Positions 1 to 1,474 of a DNA stretch of 64,000 nucleotides are shown here, piece after piece (position 1 is the first letter of the stretch; each line of letters opens with the position of its first letter). The position numbers and the translations under genes are program-made. Origin of the DNA: Sphingosinicella soli (lineage in GTDB: Bacteria; Pseudomonadota; Alphaproteobacteria; Sphingomonadales; Sphingomonadaceae); the NCBI RefSeq assembly GCF_014199685.1, contig NZ_JACHNZ010000018.1:1-64000 (forward strand), written 5' to 3'. The notes under the pieces are model-generated. The model worked only from the letters and a program-made list of their open reading frames with translations. It had not been told where the DNA came from and did not search any database.

Positions 1-30
1 CTGCTCTTCCGTAAACCTCAGTCGCTTCAT
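1..30 (-). CDS. IS3-family transposase OrfA, first 10 codons only (partial)
   Basis: Ten codons starting at the ATG at 28-30 read MKRLRFTEEQ. This matches the N-terminus of the helix-turn-helix OrfA protein of IS3-family elements, which binds the element's ends and is normally frameshift-fused to the OrfB integrase. An in-frame ATG at 43-45 is an alternative start. The gene is cut by the window edge, so nothing can be said about integrity. The family assignment rests on a very short but characteristic sequence plus the adjacent terminal repeat. Confidence 0.6.
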   Translation of the reverse strand, partial: MKRLRFTEEQ

Positions 31-89
31 CGTCCGTCCTTCCATCAGGGCCGGACTCTAATCACGCGTGGAGGAAAATCAGGGGGTCA
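1..89 (-). mobile_element. IS3-family insertion sequence, terminal fragment (runs off left edge)
   Basis: The minus strand from 89 to 1 reads TGACCCCCTGATTTTCCTCC at its outer end, a TG-starting terminal repeat typical of IS3-family elements. About 60 bases further in is an ATG-initiated frame MKRLRFTEEQ, the hallmark start of IS3-family (IS407-like) OrfA transposases. The terminus is inferred at 89 because the plus-strand acyltransferase frame takes on family-like sequence just after it. The rest of the element, including OrfB and the other terminal repeat, lies outside the window, so neither target duplication nor activity can be judged. Confidence 0.72.
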
Positions 90-853
90 CGTCAGTGAAG
101 GGAGAGGCTGTTTCAGGATATAGCGTTCCCTATTTTTTACAGTCTGTATTCCTCTTGCAGAACTGGGGCTTCTCTGACGGTCTCCAATGGAACGTGCCGG
201 CCTGGTCAATCTCTACCGAATTTTTTGCCTACCTGTGTTTCCCGCTGTTGGTTGCGCTGCTGAAAATCTGCAACTGGCCGACGTGGAGCCTCTGCATTTC
301 CCTGGGTTTTATAACTTTGGGGCTGCACTGGTATTTTCGTTCGCTCGGATTCAATTTTGCCGGGGGTATTGAAAAAACGGGGCTGCTGAGATGCGTCGCC
401 CAGTTTTTCATGGGCATGATTCTATGTGTCCTCTTTCTGAGGGACCACCGGGAAAACGTGTTGAAGATCGGCCTGCTGCTGATGGCGGCAGTGATTTTCA
501 TTTCCATGCGCATGATCGAAAAGCAGGCGCCGGTAATCCCTCTGATTTGGGTGACAATGATTCTCGGTTTCGCGCTTTGGCGCCGTGCCAACCCGCTTCT
601 TGCGCGGCCGTTGGTGTGGCTGGGCGATGTCTCTTACGCCACGTATCTTTGCCACTACTTGGCATTCATTGTTTTCAAGCTGGTGTTCGTAGGCCCTGAA
701 CAGACGCCTCTATGGTTGATCCTGGGCTTTTATGGCGGCGTTCTCGTCGCGTCTCACCTGCTTTACAGATATGTTGAGAAGCCCTCTCAACGATGGTTGA
801 CGCGGCAGTATGGCGTGTCTCGTATGGTGCGGGCAGAATCGGCAAACGGCTGA
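90..853 (+). pseudogene. Acyltransferase 3 (OafA/YrhL-like) family remnant, N-terminus removed by IS insertion
   Basis: The frame encodes about 255 residues of a polytopic membrane O-acyltransferase, with the family-like stretch NVPAWSISTEFFAYLCFPLL near its start and multiple hydrophobic helices, ending VEKPSQRW. Acyltransferase-3 proteins modify surface or exported sugars and usually have 350-400 residues; their catalytic histidine and arginine region sits in the first helices, which are absent here. The open frame continues back to a GTG at 68, but that codon lies inside the insertion sequence. Base composition is visibly less GC-rich than the neighbouring core genes, suggesting acquired DNA. 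The stop lies 10 bases from the convergent yciB stop. It is probably non-functional; a chimeric product started inside the IS cannot be excluded. Confidence 0.8.
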
Positions 854-862
854 CAACGGAAC

Positions 863-1474
863 TCAGTCTTGCCCCCCGCCGTCCTTCCCGTGCTTCATCA
901 GGATCGGCGCCTGTGATGCCGCGAAGATCATCGAGATCACCAGCACGCCCCACACCTTGAAGGCGACCCACTGGTCGAACGTCAGCCAGGCGCGCAGGGC
1001 TTCGTTCAGCATTGCCATGGCGAGGAAGAAGATCGCCCAGTTGCGGGTGAGTTTCTTCCAGCCGTCGTCGTCCATTTCGGGAAAACCGCTTTCCATCACC
1101 AGCTTCAGCAGCGGCCGCCCCGTGATGAGGCCGAAGAACAGGATCGCAGCAAACATCGCGTAGATGATCGTCGTCTTGATCTGGAAGAAGCTCTCGTCGC
1201 GCAGATAGATGGTCATGCCGCCGAACACCGCGACGACGATACCGGTGAACCACTGCATGGGGGCGATGCGCCCGGTTTTCAGCTTCGAGACGATCATGGC
1301 GATGCCGGTGGCGATCATGAAGGCCGTCGTCGCCCACACCGCCTGGTTCACATCGTCGCCGGGCGCGAGGCTGTTCACCGCGAAGAACACGAGCAGTGGG
1401 CCGAAATCCAGCGCCATGCGAAGGCCTGAACCCTTTGTCTCAGGCTTCGGCGTCTTGTCTTCCGTTTCGGCCAT
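863..1474 (-). CDS. yciB: YciB / intracellular septation protein A family (inner membrane)
   Basis: The 203-residue product has five to six hydrophobic helices and the family features DFGPLLVFF near the N-terminus, followed by conserved charged loops (YLRDESFFQIKTT, GWKKLTRNWAIFF). YciB/IspZ proteins are inner-membrane proteins linked to septation and envelope integrity; their molecular activity is not established. The ATG overlaps the stop codon of ftsY (TAATG), so it is the last gene of the minus-strand dapF-mtaB-ftsY-yciB unit. The first 17 residues are a hydrophilic tail. The family call is secure. Confidence 0.92.
   Translation of the reverse strand: MAETEDKTPKPETKGSGLRMALDFGPLLVFFAVNSLAPGDDVNQAVWATTAFMIATGIAMIVSKLKTGRIAPMQWFTGIVVAVFGGMTIYLRDESFFQIKTTIIYAMFAAILFFGLITGRPLLKLVMESGFPEMDDDGWKKLTRNWAIFFLAMAMLNEALRAWLTFDQWVAFKVWGVLVISMIFAASQAPILMKHGKDGGGQD

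Follow-up and report, generated by a model that had tools for sequence, protein, structure and literature searches.

A repeated IS end at the left edge of the window

The window covers the first 64,000 bases of a 74,920-bp contig (C18) in a draft genome of 3.76 Mb and 95 contigs. It opens with one end of an insertion sequence (IS), followed by the C-terminal part of a broken acyltransferase-3 (AT3) gene and, convergent with it, yciB. The IS end, which is the orfA side of an ISSpma3-like element of the IS3 family, occupies positions 1-94 on the minus strand. It contains the first 10 codons of orfA (MKRLRFTEEQ; minus strand, 30-1), recognized from the sequence and from alignment with the start of ISSpma3 orfA, and an outer terminal repeat, TGACGTGACCCCCTG, at 80-94 (minus strand, read outward from 94 to 80), whose 15 bases also begin the opposite IS end. 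An earlier note on this DNA had described the outward TG-terminal repeat and the start of OrfA, and both are present. The note was also right that an IS end lies here, but its boundary at 89 was rejected, as ten copies are identical up to 94.

The sequence at 1-94 recurs, 100% identical over 91-95 bp, at one end of nine further contigs in this genome, giving ten left ends (C18, C14, C70, C56, C29, C26, C25, the end of C7, C54, and C73). Ten right ends of 93-95 bp also close contigs (C16, the start of C7, C4, C3, C77, C61, C51, C48, C74, and C60). All 20 read ...GGGGGTCACGTCA, with divergence directly after, and the outer ~45 bp of the left and right ends are 86-87% alike. Since the left end closes ten contigs and the opposite end another ten, the assembly broke inside a repeated IS at base 1 of the window, which is not a biological boundary. 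More distant matches are on C15, to the left end (73%), and on C27, to the right end (90% over 50 bp).

Several other ends have features of their own. C58 closes (L056:1501-1628) with 36 bp left of a right IS end and then 92 bp of different sequence; a second mobile element may have inserted into the IS here. At the start of C7 (L017, from base 96), the right IS end adjoins a frame that by eye resembles a tyrosine-recombinase integrase. At the C14 end (L015:7072-8055), another copy of the IS interrupts a frame that looks by eye like an MFS/POT transporter; about 328 codons precede the cut, compared with open frames of 472-493 codons in relatives from the genus. The remainder of the C14 frame did not appear at any of the ten right ends or on C58 among the tblastx matches listed for three query proteins, of which only the query from genus genome G004 was in the right frame.

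The closest annotated relative in the plasmid collection was ISSpma3, an IS3-family element of Sphingopyxis macrogoltabida 203 (NZ_CP009430.1:134349-135617; L105:1327-2595, 1,269 bp). Both of its ends are ~91% identical to those of our element over 94-95 bp (left, 90.5%; right, 91.6%), and it shares the TGACGTGACCCCC termini and the corresponding start position of orfA. Three plasmid records scored higher (up to 93.6%) and carried no IS3 annotation under the match; in the two of these that we inspected, the left end alone matched over its length. A literature search for ISSpma3 found no paper. Whereas ISSpma3 is complete, our element is known from its ends, with the interior unassembled, and the likeness therefore refers to the ends and not to overall identity. 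The interior was absent from the loci compared in this genome, including the 18 smallest contigs (C78-C95). Searches of the genome with the HTH_Tnp_1 and rve profiles gave seven places each; of those compared with ISSpma3 (blastn), the C27 and C61 loci alone matched, and within the IS ends only.

The termini agree with the IS3 family: both ends read TGACGTGACCCCC inward, as TG-starting terminal inverted repeats. Of the orfA and orfB genes in overlapping frames, the contigs of this genome contain only the first 10 codons of orfA, and the full-length relative ISSpma3 has both: its orfA matches HTH_Tnp_1, and its orfB matches rve (the DDE integrase core) and scores above the cut-off of the NCBIfam IS3 transposase model.

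Two complementary pieces of an acyltransferase gene

The broken acyltransferase gene follows the IS directly, with its C-terminal 252 codons at 95-853 (plus strand). The open frame at 68-853 matches PF01757 at profile positions 104-325 of 326 (E 1.4e-15; 57.6 bits, cut-off 31), and therefore about the first third of the protein is absent. The earlier note had likewise described the frame as lacking its N-terminal catalytic helices; the frame in the flank starts at 95, however, rather than at about 90. The missing beginning lies on C16, against the opposite IS end. There, PF01757 positions 3-63 are matched at C16:291-124 (minus strand, 35.3 bits), adjoining the right IS end, in a frame that starts with an ATG at C16:321 and runs for 75 codons and then for two codons inside the IS to a stop. 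The earlier expectations that an IS3-family element interrupts an acyltransferase-3 gene, and that its first part should be sought elsewhere, are thus borne out by two complementary pieces against opposite IS ends. The note had named an acyltransferase N-terminus encoded by what it called IS sequence as the finding that would refute it. This was rejected: the full-length IS relative encodes the orfA/orfB transposase, on the opposite strand.

An intact homologue of 358 aa is present in Sphingosinicella microcystinivorans DSM 19791 (NZ_RBWX01000007.1, L091:7668-8744; contig C1 of genus genome G004). It occupies the same place after a gene we call lyB, is likewise convergent with yciB, and is 67-74% identical over the two pieces: the N-terminal piece (C16:321-96) is 74% identical to residues 8-76 and the C-terminal piece 70% identical to residues 119-350. 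C16 is collinear with the S. microcystinivorans locus up to L091:7871, and C18 from L091:8034. Unlike the intact S. microcystinivorans gene, the gene here is split by the IS and lacks about 34 codons. A search of the genome with the intact homologue (E up to 10) returned these two pieces only. Two other places matched PF01757, one a frame of 424 codons on C45 (72.6 bits) and one, below threshold, on C26; because the homologue search matched neither, they were rejected as copies of the gene. The intact protein had no PDB match by sequence.

To locate two motifs described for AT3 domains, R-X10-H and RXXR (PMC9833829), the two pieces were aligned against 33 rows, made up of the homologue and 32 loci (at most 32 genes, as the homologue appears twice). 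All 31 rows that cover R-X10-H carry it; here, this motif, assigned to TMH1, is on the N-terminal piece on C16 only, outside the window. The 31 rows covering the segment between the pieces have 31-41 residues there (median 34), all absent from both pieces; both arginines of RXXR, in TMH3, fall within this segment in all 31. RXXR is accordingly on neither piece, although each exceeds the PF01757 cut-off. The pieces are remnants of an AT3 gene and would not form a working AT3.

Thus ~100 bp of the target, encoding about 34 codons including RXXR, are missing from the assembly. The missing middle was not found in the homologue search of the genome or in the loci compared, including C78-C95. A 22-residue match on C7 was rejected as the middle (E 0.41, chance).

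Origin of the split

We compared the 4 bases flanking all left and right IS ends. In target orientation, five of the ten left ends share their flank with a right end (TCGT, CACA, CACC, ACAT, and CCCC), against 0.48 pairings expected; at least five arose in 1 of 20,000 simulations. In controls, 0 to 2 of 10 left ends matched at 12 shifted positions, and none matched at 5 bp. From this excess it follows that the ISSpma3-like element makes 4-bp target duplications, short duplications being a further IS3-family feature. One of the five, CACC (C54), would also fit the truncated IS end on C58. The ISSpma3 copy on NZ_CP009430.1 differs in having 4-bp flanks that do not match each other.

The acyltransferase site has no such duplication. 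Its first four flanking bases in the window, GTGA (95-98, plus strand), match the flank at none of the ten opposite ends, and AGCC, the flank on C16, also has no partner among opposite IS ends. The duplication that the earlier note suggested looking for is therefore lacking between the halves (GTGA versus AGCC), and about 34 codons are missing between them. Four other left and four other right ends are also unpaired; since this makes half of the ten left ends, an absent partner is nothing special to the acyltransferase site.

We conclude that, very probably, an ISSpma3-like IS3 element inserted into an AT3 acyltransferase gene between lyB and yciB and left its halves on C16 and C18, most likely with an adjacent deletion. 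The element, represented by at least 10 left and at least 10 right ends, would have inserted into the gene for this membrane protein, and a deletion beside it would have removed the codons of the middle, including RXXR, and left no target duplication. The simplest and most likely reading is deletion next to a single IS copy, and we place roughly even confidence in it as the cause of both the missing middle and the absent duplication. On this view, C16 and C18 would still be joined through one IS copy and the middle would have been deleted rather than left unassembled; the acyltransferase activity has presumably been lost. Neither gene piece contains a stop, and the IS ends do not differ between copies, which suggests a recent event.

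Events of this kind are documented in evolved E. coli. Among 83 IS events in three populations of the E. coli long-term experiment, 14 came with deletions, whose sizes ranged from 14 to 48,894 bp; every one of the 14 involved IS150, an IS3-family element, none had a target duplication, and the authors explain them all as insertion followed by adjacent deletion (PMC11708052). The IS150 events resemble ours in the family of the element, the missing target bases, and the lack of a duplication, but they were called from reads over time, whereas our event is reconstructed from a draft assembly compared with a single intact relative.

An unlikely but real possibility is that two IS copies lie ~100 bp apart in the gene, both still present, with the middle left unassembled. 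Two copies would account for the two unrelated 4-bp flanks, and a short piece between repeats would be absent from our data, in which the smallest contig searched is 1,007 bp. As shorter contigs and the IS interior are outside these data, a second copy and the ~100-bp middle could exist undetected, and the failure of the genome search and of the comparison with C78-C95 to reveal the middle, which might count against two copies, is expected anyway if that piece was dropped. This explanation, however, requires the gene to have been hit twice, independently, within ~100 bp.

Two same-orientation insertions may instead have been followed by recombination that deleted the middle and left one IS. 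The E. coli study names recombination between identical ISs as a cause of missing duplications (PMC11708052), and this sequence of events would account for the missing ~100 bp as well as the unmatched flanks; as it takes two insertions and a recombination, more steps than an adjacent deletion, we regard it as rather unlikely.

C16 and C18 need not be neighbors today. Recombination between IS copies could have rearranged the chromosome and moved the halves apart, with at least 10 copies as substrates and an assembly that leaves the contigs unjoined. Rearrangement by itself, however, would leave the two halves with matching flanking duplications and with their ~100 bp intact; it could therefore have acted only on top of another event, and we consider it improbable.

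A working chimeric protein, which the earlier note thought conceivable, is extremely improbable: the frame is indeed open from a GTG at 68 inside the IS (in-frame extension at 68-94, plus strand) to 853, but the product would lack both R-X10-H and RXXR, each present in 31 of 31 covering relatives, and no sigma-70-like promoter was found in window positions 1-1000 (0.4 expected by chance).

An adjacent deletion remains our preferred reading, and the split is an ordinary case of gene decay, in which a gene is inactivated by an IS through a kind of event already known. It would add one probable example, again from the IS3 family, of target bases missing beside the element without a duplication of the target, a pattern documented in evolved E. 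coli (PMC11708052). For this Sphingosinicella-type bacterium, the predicted consequence would be that a membrane acyltransferase, encoded by a gene that overlaps lyB, has been lost. Beyond this routine inactivation by a multicopy IS, the left edge of the window serves as a warning of an assembly break. That this IS lineage makes adjacent deletions unusually often is doubtful; the basis for such a reading is the five unpaired left ends of ten and the ~100 bp missing at the only site for which an intact relative was compared.

Neighborhood and distribution of the gene

The acyltransferase remnant, ending at 853, is separated from yciB (septation protein A; 863-1474, minus strand; PF04279, E 9.8e-54; syntenic in the genus) by 9 bases, so the adjacency noted earlier holds, with a gap of 9 rather than 10. 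Its lower GC content, also noted earlier, is confirmed (52.7%, versus 61.1% for yciB and 69.1% for the measured part of ftsY), and in both carriers the gene is AT-richer than its neighbors (52-53% versus 60-69% GC). S. microcystinivorans has the gene order sigma-54 regulator, sodB, lyA, lyB, acyltransferase, yciB, and ftsY (lyA and lyB are working names), and C16 and C18 together have the same order. In both carriers lyB and the acyltransferase gene share a 4-bp start-stop overlap, which is ATGA here and GTGA in S. microcystinivorans.

In three other genomes of the genus (G001, G002, and G003), a lyB-like gene adjoins yciB directly (tblastn matches 22, 66, and 19 bases apart) with no acyltransferase gene between them. 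A fifth relative, G005, was left out of this comparison because its contig ends inside yciB. The acyltransferase piece had no match in G001, G002, G003, or G005 (E up to 0.001). With carriers in two of the five genus genomes with a readable locus and three relatives in which lyB and yciB are adjacent without it, the gene is patchily distributed. In a small tree of four neighboring proteins, G004 groups with G003 (support 0.93) and the genome of the window joins G002/G005 (support 0.26); the two carriers are thus not sisters, on a poorly supported key branch, and one gain with losses is indistinguishable from two gains. The earlier description of the gene as acquired fits its AT-richness and patchiness, but with two carriers in five and a weak tree branch acquisition is possible rather than established.

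The earlier proposal of a junction here between an accessory surface-sugar region and core chromosome was not supported. The order from the sigma-54 regulator to ftsY is kept in the genus. Because the neighbors on both sides are syntenic and the flanking genes are adjacent in three relatives, we rejected an accessory island starting at this point.

The genes preceding the acyltransferase, lyA and lyB, encode two adjacent paralogous proteins (L013:318-2087 and L013:2142-4202 on C16, minus strand; relatives at L091:5905-7671 and L091:3798-5807). Neither has a Pfam match; in NCBIfam, lyB had no match and lyA a single one of 20.7 bits (cut-off 3000). By sequence, lyB had no PDB match, and the AlphaFold model of a lyB relative was too poor for a fold search (mean pLDDT 43.5). 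The paralogues are 57% identical in S. microcystinivorans, one has a long Thr-Pro repeat, and by eye their N-termini resemble those of exported proteins.
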